Shown here piece by piece: positions 46,543 to 49,554 of a stretch of DNA of 49,554 nucleotides (the stretch's first letter is position 1; each line of letters starts with the position of its first letter). The stretch lies in contig JAHDVX010000025.1 in the NCBI GenBank assembly GCA_023382455.1, positions 1 to 49,554 of the forward strand, given 5' to 3'. Under the pieces are notes generated by a model. It saw only the letters and a list, made by a program, of their open reading frames with translations. It searched no databases and was not told the DNA's origin. Source of the stretch: Flavobacteriales bacterium. Its GTDB lineage: Bacteria; Bacteroidota; Bacteroidia; Flavobacteriales_F; PHOS-HE28. The position numbers were made by a program, and so were the translations under genes.

Positions 46543-47469
46543 TCAATTGCCTTGATGCCTGGCCTTCGGGCCATGCAGGGTGAACACCCGTGAGATATTG
46601 AACCCGAAATGGATGTCACCGTCGAAGAAGTCGCCGGTGCTCTCGGTGATGAAGTCCCTTTCGGACATGCCGGTGCTGTTGGTGAACTGCAGCTGGAAGA
46701 CATGGCCGCCGGTCTCGATGTCCACCCCGAAGGCAAGTGAATTCAAGTAGGGCTGACGCGGACCTTGGTCCGGGAACACATAGTAGTACTCCCCGGTGAT
46801 CGCCACCCGTTTGGTCACCTTGGCGCGCCCGGCCACACCGGCGTTCAGCAGGTCATTGCGCTCGGCAGCAGTGGTCACCAGGTTGCGGTGCACCACGCCC
46901 GGCATCACCTGCAGGCTGATCCCCTCGGAGATCTTGCGGCCCAACACCGCCTGAAAGCTGTACGCCAAGCGGTTGGAGAACAGGTCCTCGCGACCCGGAG
47001 CGTACCAGGGCAACTGATCGGCAACCGTGGTGATGGCGGAGGCGCTGGCCACCAGGTCCAGTGTTACGGGCATGGAACATCCTGCCTGGCATTGCCGCAG
47101 CAGCTTGTACTTCAGGAATCCGTCCACGGTCTTCCGGAAACTGCCCCGGCCGATACCCACCATCAACCGGTCCGTCAATCCATAATCCAGCCCCAGGCGA
47201 ATGCTGGCCTGGTCCAAGCCGAAGAACTCGGATATGCCTCCGCTGACAAAACCCATCCGGTGGCTGATCCGGAAGTCCAGCACGCCATGTGGCAGCACTT
47301 CCAGGCTGTGCCCGTTGATGACGCGGGTGGACTTGAAGCTGGCTCCGGCATGGGTACGGACCGTGCTGTCCGGGCCCAAGGCGGCAAGCAGGCCTTCCTG
47401 GGCGAGCAATGGGGCAGCGGATAGCAGGAAGACCGCCGGAGCGAGAAAGGAAATGGGGCGAAAAAGCAT
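46543..47469 (-). CDS. DUF5777 family outer-membrane beta-barrel protein
   Basis: A 308-aa protein with signal peptide MLFRPISFLAPAVFLLSAAPLLAQ. The rest shows alternating-residue beta strands typical of an outer-membrane barrel (LDFRISHRMGFVSGG, SIRLGLDYGLTDRLMVGIG, LAYSFQAVLGRKI, VFQLQFTNSTGM) and ends GDIHFGFNISRVFTL. The RISHRMG segment near residue 67 is a hallmark of DUF5777. It abuts the YceI gene without a gap and is the last gene of a four-gene minus-strand operon. Its ligand or cargo is unknown. Confidence 0.85.
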   Translation of the reverse strand: MLFRPISFLAPAVFLLSAAPLLAQEGLLAALGPDSTVRTHAGASFKSTRVINGHSLEVLPHGVLDFRISHRMGFVSGGISEFFGLDQASIRLGLDYGLTDRLMVGIGRGSFRKTVDGFLKYKLLRQCQAGCSMPVTLDLVASASAITTVADQLPWYAPGREDLFSNRLAYSFQAVLGRKISEGISLQVMPGVVHRNLVTTAAERNDLLNAGVAGRAKVTKRVAITGEYYYVFPDQGPRQPYLNSLAFGVDIETGGHVFQLQFTNSTGMSERDFITESTGDFFDGDIHFGFNISRVFTLHGPKARHQGN

Positions 47470-48024
47470 TCACAACTTCCGGTAGGTGATGTCCACGGTG
47501 ACCTGGATGGACTTGGCGATCTTGTCCCGCACCACACCCGGAATGGCGATGGCATGGTCCTCGGGCTTCACCTCGAAGGTGCAGCCGGCCTTGATCCGGC
47601 CATCCGGCCCGGAGATCAATTGGGCCGTTGTGTGCAATGGTCGTTCAACCCCATGGATGTTCAGTGTTCCATCCACCTCCGCGGAATGGACGCCCTGCTT
47701 GGTAAGGTCGTCACCGGCATTGGGCACAATGCGGCCTTTGAATGTGGCCTTGGGCCATTTGGCACTCTCCATGTAGTTCTCGTTGAAGTGCTCTTGCATC
47801 AGGGCTTTCTCAAACTCGAACGCCCGGATGAGCACGGAGAACTCAATGGCCCCGGTGGACGGGATAAGCACACTGGCGGCATTCCGGTTCACGGCGGTGA
47901 TATCCTCCAACGGGGCGCTGGAGAAGAACGTGATGGTGCCGTTGCGCGAGCCGTACTTGTCCTGCGCGGCAACCACGGCAGGCCACAACATCAAGGTGAG
48001 AAGCAGGGGTCTAGCGGATGGCAT
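47470..48024 (-). CDS. YceI family periplasmic protein
   Basis: A 184-aa protein; MPSARPLLLTLMLWPAVVAAQ is the signal peptide and sets the start at 48024. The YceI lipocalin-like barrel follows: NGTITFFSSAPLEDITAVNR, IRAFEFEKALMQEHFNENYM, KWPKATFKGRI, VDGTLNIHGVERPL and a terminal strand with IPGVVRDKIAKSIQVTVDI. YceI-type barrels bind isoprenoid-like lipids; the Bacteroidota form found here is usually linked to envelope or redox genes. It lies 11 bp from the OB-fold gene and abuts the barrel gene. Confidence 0.9.
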   Translation of the reverse strand: MPSARPLLLTLMLWPAVVAAQDKYGSRNGTITFFSSAPLEDITAVNRNAASVLIPSTGAIEFSVLIRAFEFEKALMQEHFNENYMESAKWPKATFKGRIVPNAGDDLTKQGVHSAEVDGTLNIHGVERPLHTTAQLISGPDGRIKAGCTFEVKPEDHAIAIPGVVRDKIAKSIQVTVDITYRKL

Positions 48025-48035
48025 GGGGCATGGGT

Positions 48036-48452
48036 TTATCGGTGCTCCGGAACGAAGGCACATCGTTGGAGCAGCACATCAAAGTTGTACCCTGCACAAT
48101 ATCCCTTGATGGTGACCGACGTGCCGGCACCCGGGACTTTTGCGCCGATGGGAAATTCACAAAGCACCGCTCCCATCGCATCGCCGGTCTCCAGAAGGAC
48201 GATCAAGCGGCCATCCTCCTCCGTCCTCGCTTCGCGCACAGCACCCTGCACCTGGATCAACTTGCCATTGTAAGATCGGCCAGCTGCTGCTTCATCTTGC
48301 TGGAAAGCCAGGAACAGCTCACCGGCCGGCAAGGCCATTTCCGGCTTGTGGTCGGCGGCTTCCGGCACCGTCTCGTTCCAGGCCCGGTATCCGAGGAAAG
48401 CGGCCACCAAGGCTGCCAATAGGCCAATGACCAGGAAGGACCTCCTTTTCAT
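48036..48452 (-). CDS. OB-fold (tRNA_anti-like) membrane-anchored protein
   Basis: A 138-aa protein with a single N-terminal helix (SFLVIGLLAALVAAFLGY) preceded by MKRR, then an OB-fold domain (about 50-135) of the tRNA_anti-like type: YNGKLIQVQGAVREA, VLLETGDAMGAVLCEF, GTSVTIKGYCAGYN. Such domains occur in Bacteroidota in envelope proteins and are not expected to bind tRNA. The ATG at 48452 lies 5 bp from the stop of the cytochrome-like gene, indicating one transcript. Confidence 0.75.
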   Translation of the reverse strand: MKRRSFLVIGLLAALVAAFLGYRAWNETVPEAADHKPEMALPAGELFLAFQQDEAAAGRSYNGKLIQVQGAVREARTEEDGRLIVLLETGDAMGAVLCEFPIGAKVPGAGTSVTIKGYCAGYNFDVLLQRCAFVPEHR

Positions 48453-48457
48453 GGGGT

Positions 48458-48826
48458 TCAGTTCTGCGGTGCCCCTTGCTGCACCCATTCGGTGATCTTG
48501 GCGATATCACATTCGGACAACATGCCATAGGGCGGCATGGCCACCGCGTCCGGGCTTTGATTGATGGAGGGCAGCAACGAGCCATCGTCCACCCTTTCCT
48601 TCACACCGGTATAGCTGGTGTAATCACCGGGTGCATCGCCTCCGGGCACATGGCAACCGGCAACCGCGCAATTCAACTCAATGATCGGCCGGACCGAGCC
48701 GGAGTAGGTCACGGATGCCGTGTCGCAATAGTTGATCGGGTACAGGTCCTCCTCGTTGATGTATGTGCATCCGCAGAGACCCGCAAGCAAGCACCCGACT
48801 CCCAGAAAGCGTAATCCCATGGACAT
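48458..48826 (-). CDS. Cytochrome c-like lipoprotein with CX4CH motif
   Basis: A 122-aa protein; ATG 48826 or 48820 are both possible starts. Signal peptide MSMGLRFLGVGCLLAGLCGC has a lipobox at Cys20 (Cys18 is an alternative). The mature domain looks like the short c-type cytochromes of Bacteroidota: VRPIIELNCAVAGCHVPGG (C53, C58, H59, a CX4CH spacing rather than CXXCH) and AMPPYGMLSECDIAKITEWVQQGAP with candidate axial Met (M97 or M102). Whether heme is bound covalently cannot be decided. It is the promoter-proximal gene of the operon; no clear -7 element is visible. A reading frame running upstream through the tRNA gene is spurious. Confidence 0.7.
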   Translation of the reverse strand: MSMGLRFLGVGCLLAGLCGCTYINEEDLYPINYCDTASVTYSGSVRPIIELNCAVAGCHVPGGDAPGDYTSYTGVKERVDDGSLLPSINQSPDAVAMPPYGMLSECDIAKITEWVQQGAPQN

Positions 48827-48979
48827 TGGATGCAGCAGGATGGATCCCGTTACAGCCCTTCCATGGCTAGACGCACCTTGGTGCTTCACGGTGGCCTTGC
48901 ATGAACAAATGCGGTGACCACCGGCCCACGGCCAGGATCGGACCGGTGCATGCGTCAAGGTTCCTCGCCCTTGCGCGGC

Positions 48980-48987
48980 TATATTTG
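48980..48987 (+). promoter_or_regulatory. -7 element TATATTTG for tRNA-Ser
   Basis: A perfect TAnnTTTG box 24 nt upstream of the tRNA 5' end. Confidence 0.55.
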
Positions 48988-49011
48988 CCGCCCCTTGGAC
49001 CAGGGGGCCTT

Positions 49012-49101
49012 GGAGAGGTGCCGGAGTGGTCGATCGGGTCTGTCTCGAAAACAGAAGTGCCCGCAAGGGTACCGGGGGTTCGAATCCCTCCCTCTCCGCC
49101 A
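49012..49101 (+). tRNA. tRNA-Ser(CGA)
   Basis: The 7-bp acceptor stem GGAGAGG (49012-49018) pairs with CCTCTCC (49091-49097), followed by discriminator G and encoded CCA (49099-49101). The anticodon stem TCTGT/ACAGA encloses the loop CTCGAAA, giving anticodon CGA (serine, codon UCG). A long variable arm and the T loop TTCGAAT complete the class II tRNA pattern. Confidence 0.95.
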
Positions 49102-49104
49102 AGC

Positions 49105-49124
49105 CGCCCCGCGAAAGCGGGGCG
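49105..49124 (+). terminator. Hairpin after tRNA-Ser
   Basis: CGCCCCGC / GCGGGGCG arms (49105-49112 and 49117-49124) with GAAA loop, 3 bp after the CCA end. The T tract is weak, so function as a terminator is probable but unproven. Confidence 0.5.
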
Positions 49125-49182
49125 TGTTCGTCCAGGGAGGCGAGGCGAGCTTGCTCAGCCGAGCATACCTGGACGAACACGC
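49122..49182. repeat. Long inverted repeat downstream of tRNA-Ser
   Basis: GCGTGTTCGTCCAGG (49122-49136) is the reverse complement of 49168-49182 (15 of 15 bases). A smaller GCTC-AGCC-GAGC hairpin lies in the loop. Confidence 0.7.
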
Positions 49183-49214
49183 AAACCCGCGAAGCGGGTG
49201 GCGGCCCGAAGCCT

Positions 49215-49409
49215 CCCCCCTCAGGGAAAGCGCCCAACGGGCGCAATCCCTTCCATAAGGAAGAATAAGCCGAGCTTGCTCGAAGCCATCCGATGGACGG
49301 CTGGTCCCAAGGCCGCGAAGCGGACTTCGTGTTGAAGCCTCTTTGCGTAGCCGTAGCCATGCGAAGGCTCGCCCCCCTCAGGGATAGCACCCAGCGGGCG
49401 CAACCCCTT
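49215..49409. repeat. Direct repeat pair in the non-coding tract
   Basis: Two 38-nt copies (49215-49252 and 49372-49409) match at 34 positions. Each starts with six C followed by TCAGGG and holds GCGCCCAACGGGCGC or its near match. Related short pieces containing GAGCTTGC occur at about 49146, 49272 and 49427. No gene lies here. Confidence 0.7.
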
Positions 49410-49499
49410 TCTGCAACATGGCGACCTGAGCTTGCCCGTCTGCGCAAGCCATGGCGGACACGACGACTCGTAAAACAGGGAACACGGGAGGGCTCCAAC

Positions 49500-49533
49500 G
49501 CAAAAGCCCCCGCGTTTCCGCGGGGGCTTTTGC
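49500..49533. terminator. Strong hairpin near the window end
   Basis: A perfect 15-bp stem (49500-49514 and 49519-49533, loop TTTC) with A-rich and T-rich edges inside the stem, suited to terminate transcription from either side. The gene beyond it is outside the window. Confidence 0.7.
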
Positions 49534-49554
49534 TTGTCGGTTCCCGAAGGCCGG

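Follow-up and report, generated by a model that had tools for sequence, protein, structure and literature searches.

A conserved putative redox operon in the Bacteroidota envelope combines a one-electron carrier with a DUF5777 barrel and a YceI lipocalin

Introduction

Four adjacent genes in a Flavobacteriales genome (assembly GCA_023382455.1, contig JAHDVX010000025.1) encode a cytochrome c-like lipoprotein, an OB-fold protein, a YceI-family lipocalin and an outer-membrane beta-barrel of the family DUF5777. What task could bring a lipid-anchored electron carrier, a lipocalin and a barrel together in one operon? The initial annotation saw a path from the inner membrane to the outside, with lipid or quinone transfer or extracellular electron transfer as conceivable roles. 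In one literature library, we found no description of the operon among the titles and abstract starts on YceI, Rieske proteins or Bacteroidota porin-cytochrome systems, and no paper naming DUF5777. Below, "the window" is the whole 49,554-nucleotide stretch that was analyzed, and loci from other genomes or contigs carry numbers beginning with L.

Results and Discussion

Gene content and genomic setting

The four minus-strand genes occupy 46543-48826, with gaps of 5 bp (lipoprotein/OB), 11 bp (OB/YceI) and 0 bp (YceI/DUF5777), just as first described, and the four family assignments are upheld by Pfam and by the family profile (Table 1). A gap of 185 bp parts the operon from a divergent tRNA-Ser, and a loose promoter-pattern scan upstream of the operon returned nothing convincing.

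Table 1. Features of the operon and its upstream flank, in window coordinates
Feature	Position	Strand	Remarks
DUF5777 outer-membrane beta-barrel	46543..47469	-	PF19089; 12 predicted strands; N-terminal signal peptide by eye
YceI-family lipocalin	47470..48024	-	PF04264; signal peptide at N-terminus by eye
OB-fold protein	48036..48452	-	PF12869 tRNA_anti-like; N-terminal hydrophobic stretch read by eye as membrane anchor
Cytochrome c lipoprotein, mono-heme class I	48458..48826	-	lipobox Cys20, CX4CH C53-H59, distal Met97-Pro98
Intergenic region, operon to divergent tRNA-Ser	48827..49011	.	presumed site of operon promoter
tRNA-Ser	49012-49101	+	divergent from operon

Profile searches of the 3.43-Mb genome returned a single match each for DUF5777 and the OB protein, one strong match for the cytochrome (119 bits, with one other at 36 bits) and four for YceI. 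The 15-20 kb stretches around the other three YceI genes held no partner profile at E<=0.01, in a search whose YceI profile re-found two of these three genes. Because the partners are near-unique in the genome and the other YceI genes stand without them, we do not regard the grouping as a product of chance. The 36-bit match, the only other cytochrome-profile match of the genome (L271:8743-10288), covers the N-terminal part of a 515-aa frame that has a CXXCH motif and whose longer C-terminal region is of a different type.

Downstream of the operon, genes such as that for citrate synthase are common to the window and its genus relatives L073 and L080 (gene names by eye). Upstream, the genus relatives carry a diheme lipoprotein and, as judged by eye, a LytTR-type response regulator and a large sensor protein; a second YceI gene lies ~4 kb upstream in 10 of their loci (by eye). 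The window's counterpart of that region (48827-49554) holds the tRNA-Ser and then the contig end, where the last part (49102-49554) looks repetitive and non-coding by eye.

Conservation across Bacteroidota

DUF5777 was present in 34/39 genomes of the relatives set (own genome counted) and in 153/395 genomes of the phylum draw, covering 83/171 genera. From the matches listed, 119 usable neighborhoods were picked by hand, a sample skewed to high scores; in these plus the window, iterated profiles found the cytochrome in 103/120, YceI in 103/120 and the OB protein in 49/120. We added 80 named loci, the best 80 of 588, most of which likewise have the cytochrome and YceI beside the barrel and some of which lack one member. 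Examples come from Salibacter, Saprospiraceae, Chitinophagales, Hymenobacter, Pontibacter, Dyadobacter (in a Rieske form), Muricauda and Bacteroidales MAGs.

Removal of 4 duplicates and 20 edge-limited loci from the resulting 200 (119, the window and the 80) left 176. A cytochrome of the window's family occurs in 158 of them, 156 being mono-heme and two diheme only (L086, L110), where "mono-heme," in these counts and in the scoring of frames below, means fewer than two motifs in the frame and includes some larger-type frames. YceI is found in 152/176; taking one per locus, 147/152 are on the barrel strand at a median gap of 10 bp. The OB protein is present in 95/176, and cytochrome, YceI and OB occur jointly in 87/176. 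Some one-electron carrier was detected in 168/176 loci.

The set is thus no peculiarity of close relatives, since it recurs across the phylum in many distant genomes. A gene-neighborhood survey had been suggested as the check on whether the four families keep one order; their linkage holds, and their order varies from family to family. Neither outcome named beforehand as refuting the unit, restriction to close relatives or an unconserved cysteine motif, was observed. Many loci run cytochrome-OB-YceI-barrel, OB leads in others, and some read barrel-cytochrome-YceI; in five (L115, L116, L123, L124, L131), YceI and the cytochrome lie on the strand opposite the barrel. As judged from gene content, the recurring core is a one-electron carrier plus the barrel, usually with YceI, that is, a predicted redox unit.

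Sigma-factor-like and anti-sigma-like genes (by eye) stand beside a subset of the operons, e.g. L138, L168 and L178, and fall in neighbor clusters of 21 and 12 loci.

The cytochrome c lipoprotein

We aligned the window protein with 31 homologues that are 24-48% identical to it, and C20, C53, C58, H59, M97, P98 and W114 were invariant in 32/32. All 32 sequences thereby have the CXnCH heme motif with axial Met that characterizes c-type cytochromes: both cysteines, the histidine and the Met-Pro pair are constant, and the spacing of the cysteines alternates, chiefly between CX2CH and CX4CH.

General profiles recognize the family unevenly. The window lipoprotein scores only 14.7 bits against PF13442 (cut-off 27) and is not among the 21/32 family members in which that domain is found at E<=0.01; PSCyt1 is found at the same threshold in 5/32. 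Searched against the PDB, the family profile matches an engineered c555 trimer (2.4e-7) and cytochrome c6 (5.9e-6). The structural model of the window protein (pLDDT 87.5) gave no Foldseek match at E<=0.001, the best being PccH at E 0.86; since this match is not significant, we base the cytochrome assignment on the sequence profiles. The genome also has two matches to the cytochrome c assembly protein PF01578. The evidence points to a small electron-carrying lipoprotein, with heme or another cofactor.

Among 174 mono-heme frames, the heme motif is CX2CH in 107, CX4CH in 62, CX3CH in 3 and CX5CH in 2, and on the barrel tree, which here is a proxy for the history of the cytochrome, the spacing has switched state at least 29 times. 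CX3CH and CX4CH are counted elsewhere as heme-binding motifs (PMC10734462).

An acidic stretch follows the lipid-bearing cysteine in 96 of the 125 scorable members among these 174 frames, vs 44/128 controls of a crude kind; diheme members have it in 7/37 cases and Rieske members in 0/8. The window copy, which lies outside the scored set, reads C-T-Y-I-N-E-E-D in the alignment. The stretch resembles the Bacteroidetes lipoprotein export signal as PMC5080379 describes it, and we take this as a hint that it may serve as the export signal of the carrier.

Replacement of the carrier

The cytochrome is missing in 17 of the first 120 loci, seven of which have a Rieske-type protein, two a plastocyanin-like protein and one (L180) another cytochrome c. 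Six of those seven Rieske-type proteins carry CxH...CxxH, and the seventh (L103) is without the second half of the cluster motif; the Rieske proteins tested all exceed the PF00355 cut-off (10/10). Across the 176 loci, Rieske proteins occur in nine, 0/9 with a mono-heme cytochrome and 9/9 with YceI; in 8/9 no more than 60 bp separates the Rieske gene from that of the barrel, and one locus (L110) retains a diheme cytochrome. The Rieske state changes at least five times on the FastTree tree of the barrel. A paired tree test of Rieske against cytochrome had 4-5 pairs only (median p 0.5), and with so few independent events and so underpowered a test, the mutual exclusion of Rieske and mono-heme carriers is suggestive and unproven.

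Copper proteins can also stand in for the cytochrome. Two cytochrome-less loci carry a PF00127 cupredoxin instead; the cupredoxins tested all match this family (5/5), and 3/5 have a T9SS sorting domain. Two of the T9SS-tailed plastocyanin-like proteins (L114:6322-6894 and L126:7810-8394) are encoded between OB and barrel in operons that keep their cytochrome, and the third (L090:4910-5527) directly upstream of the cytochrome. Profiles found no carrier in 8/176 loci, of which L180 and L111 have another CXXCH protein nearby; in the other six no carrier was seen, L258 being judged by profiles alone.

Because the cytochrome is swapped for a Rieske protein or a cupredoxin, these loci support an electron-transfer role, so that this part of the original interpretation has gained ground and the whole is partly supported. 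The putative Rieske or plastocyanin-like carriers in place of the cytochrome and the T9SS-tailed cupredoxins are what is new here. A natural change from cytochrome to Rieske or copper protein beside one and the same barrel is also a ready-made experiment.

The OB-fold and YceI proteins

The OB protein scores 60.3 bits against PF12869 (cut-off 23.5). CcmE is likewise a membrane-anchored OB fold, and a role as a CcmE-like heme chaperone was considered; we dropped it because, besides M1, only three glycines are invariant in the OB alignment, leaving no His or Tyr that is conserved and could bind heme. By profile, OB is absent from 81/176 DUF5777 loci.

YceI belongs to PF04264 (47.7 bits, cut-off 23.7), covering profile positions 40-149 of 150, and its family profile matches solved YceI structures with a best E of 2.7e-11. 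Lipocalins of this kind bind ubiquinone-8 or octaprenyl lipids, and relatives hold hydrophobic molecules, according to PMC9113575; one table line of PMC5429918 lists a YceI-like gene in connection with iron limitation in Riemerella. YceI is not indispensable to the unit, as profiles find none in 24/176 loci.

The DUF5777 barrel

The fourth protein is a clear member of its family (294.1 bits against PF19089, cut-off 23.1). An AlphaFold2 model built from 29 sequences predicts a barrel of 12 strands with a mean pLDDT of 87.5. The top structural match of this model is KdgM (Z 17.7, rmsd 2.0 over 167), followed by FapF (Z 17.4, rmsd 3.9 over 216); the model aligns to small porins (KdgM, NanC) and to FapF, and many barrel families also align. 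H70, G84, H256, F258 and F290 are identical in 176/176 loci and R294 in 175/176. An enzyme site within the barrel was considered and dropped, as the conserved His, Arg and Tyr residues seem, by strand parity, to face the lipid.

What surrounds the barrel when YceI is gone? We examined eight of the 24 YceI-less neighborhoods among the 176, and five look respiratory: Pfam finds NorB in L180, NrfD and 4Fe-4S domains in L158, a 4Fe-4S domain in L097 and a multicopper oxidase in L179, and L176 looks respiratory by eye, with L088, L164 and L173 less clearly so. The clusters around the barrels in L180, L179, L158, L176 and L097 resemble those for denitrification or anaerobic respiration. The small cytochrome is present in 4/5 of them, and L180 has another cytochrome. 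Since YceI-less loci sit in respiratory-looking clusters, the barrel appears to accompany electron carriers without YceI too.

Proposed function and alternatives

We propose that a lipid-anchored one-electron carrier (cytochrome c here, a Rieske [2Fe-2S] or blue-copper protein elsewhere) would work with the barrel and YceI in a conserved redox operon of the envelope. YceI would ferry a prenyl-lipid through the periplasm, most likely menaquinone or an oxidized lipid, and the carrier would swap single electrons with this ligand at the outer membrane. The barrel would anchor the carrier and may let it, or small substrates, reach the surface; the OB protein would be an optional helper. The likeliest purpose is the repair of oxidized lipids, an analogy drawn from another phylum. 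What the analysis itself establishes are the gene families, their linkage, the constancy of the heme site and the exchange of carriers, with the barrel fold as a prediction. We infer the ligand of YceI, the direction of the electrons with their source and acceptor, the purpose, and the outer-membrane or surface site of the carrier, and we hold the reading as a whole tentatively, at somewhat less than an even chance.

The first suggestion, a path leading from the inner membrane to the outside, survives in part. The OB protein, its supposed inner-membrane element, is too often missing, and a 12-stranded barrel with a mono-heme protein corresponds to no known trans-envelope wire. The latter point also bears on the strongest rival explanation, in which a surface carrier and its barrel partner exchange electrons with extracellular acceptors or with enzymes on the surface, YceI giving quinone from inside. 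The acidic stretch behind the lipid cysteine, the T9SS-tailed cupredoxins and the barrel-cytochrome pairs within respiratory clusters all favor such surface exchange. However, a mono-heme carrier beside a narrow predicted barrel is unlike the multiheme porin-cytochrome conduits, no trans-barrel cofactor chain was seen, and the control for the acidic stretch is crude, so we consider surface exchange unlikely. A bolder form of our own proposal is rather unlikely: the DUF5777 barrel might present an interchangeable carrier (cytochrome c, Rieske or blue-copper) at the surface, charged by YceI-borne quinone, and so make one-electron reactions possible at the outer membrane, or across it, with no need of multiheme wires.

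The lipoprotein could also be an ordinary periplasmic shuttle to oxidases in an auxiliary pool for aerobic growth or denitrification, with barrel and YceI handling unrelated lipids under shared regulation. DUF5777 occurs in 153/378 genomes with COX1-type PF00115 and in 0/17 without it (compared by eye), and FNR-like regulators (by eye) lie near some divergent copies. Yet this co-occurrence is weak because COX1 is present in 378/395 genomes, the 17 COX1-less genomes being few and partly related; moreover, an auxiliary pool leaves the tight barrel-YceI-carrier linkage across families and the replacement of carrier types unexplained, and we judge it distinctly improbable. Least probable, and very doubtful, is uptake or export of a hydrophobic compound, a lipid-like nutrient or toxin moved by barrel and YceI and oxidized by the carrier: FadL/TbuX-type channels (Z about 12) and COG4313 (Z 16.1) can be aligned to the barrel, and the hydrophobic ligands of YceI relatives would fit, but the best structural matches of the barrel are the small porins and FapF within a fold to which many families align, and inspection by eye of the 40 largest neighbor clusters showed no catabolic gene that recurs.

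Should the unit be borne out, DUF5777, a family of unknown function, would gain a role, a second phylum would be known to pair YceI lipocalins with redox partners, through different carriers, and there would be a testable route by which the outer membrane of Bacteroidota is defended against redox damage or exchanges electrons.

Comparison with known systems

The lipoprotein shares its C-Xn-CH motif and distal Met-Pro with class I cytochrome c domains of the PF13442/PSCyt1 type. In contrast to these, the window family consists of small lipoproteins with variable CX2CH/CX4CH spacing and linkage to YceI and DUF5777.

In porin-cytochrome conduits of the MtrAB/Pcc type, a wide barrel encloses a multiheme cytochrome. 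They likewise place an outer-membrane barrel beside a c-type cytochrome; the Bacteroidota operon differs in its mono-heme carrier and probably in its barrel, predicted to have 12 strands. The window gene has a single CXnCH rather than the multiheme array of a conduit, and the genus relatives add an upstream diheme protein.

The closest functional parallel is BcnA-LcoA of Burkholderia, with a two-gene form in Escherichia, which also co-encodes YceI with a heme electron-transfer protein. PMC9113575 reports that the YceI protein BcnA and the cytochrome b561 LcoA limit lipid peroxidation, and its authors suggest that LcoA may re-reduce the quinone held by BcnA; the main text of that paper does not contain the string "Bacteroid". 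Our genome has 0 matches to cytochrome b561 (PF01292), a profile that matched 8/14 control genomes, 4 of them over the cut-off, and for want of it the operon is not a member of the BcnA-LcoA system. Both link a YceI to a heme protein, and the type of heme protein differs between them. We therefore see in the operon a possible Bacteroidota counterpart of the YceI/cytochrome b561 pair: where BcnA is partnered by cytochrome b561, the Bacteroidota YceI would be served by a cytochrome c, a Rieske or a copper protein, with an outer-membrane barrel added.
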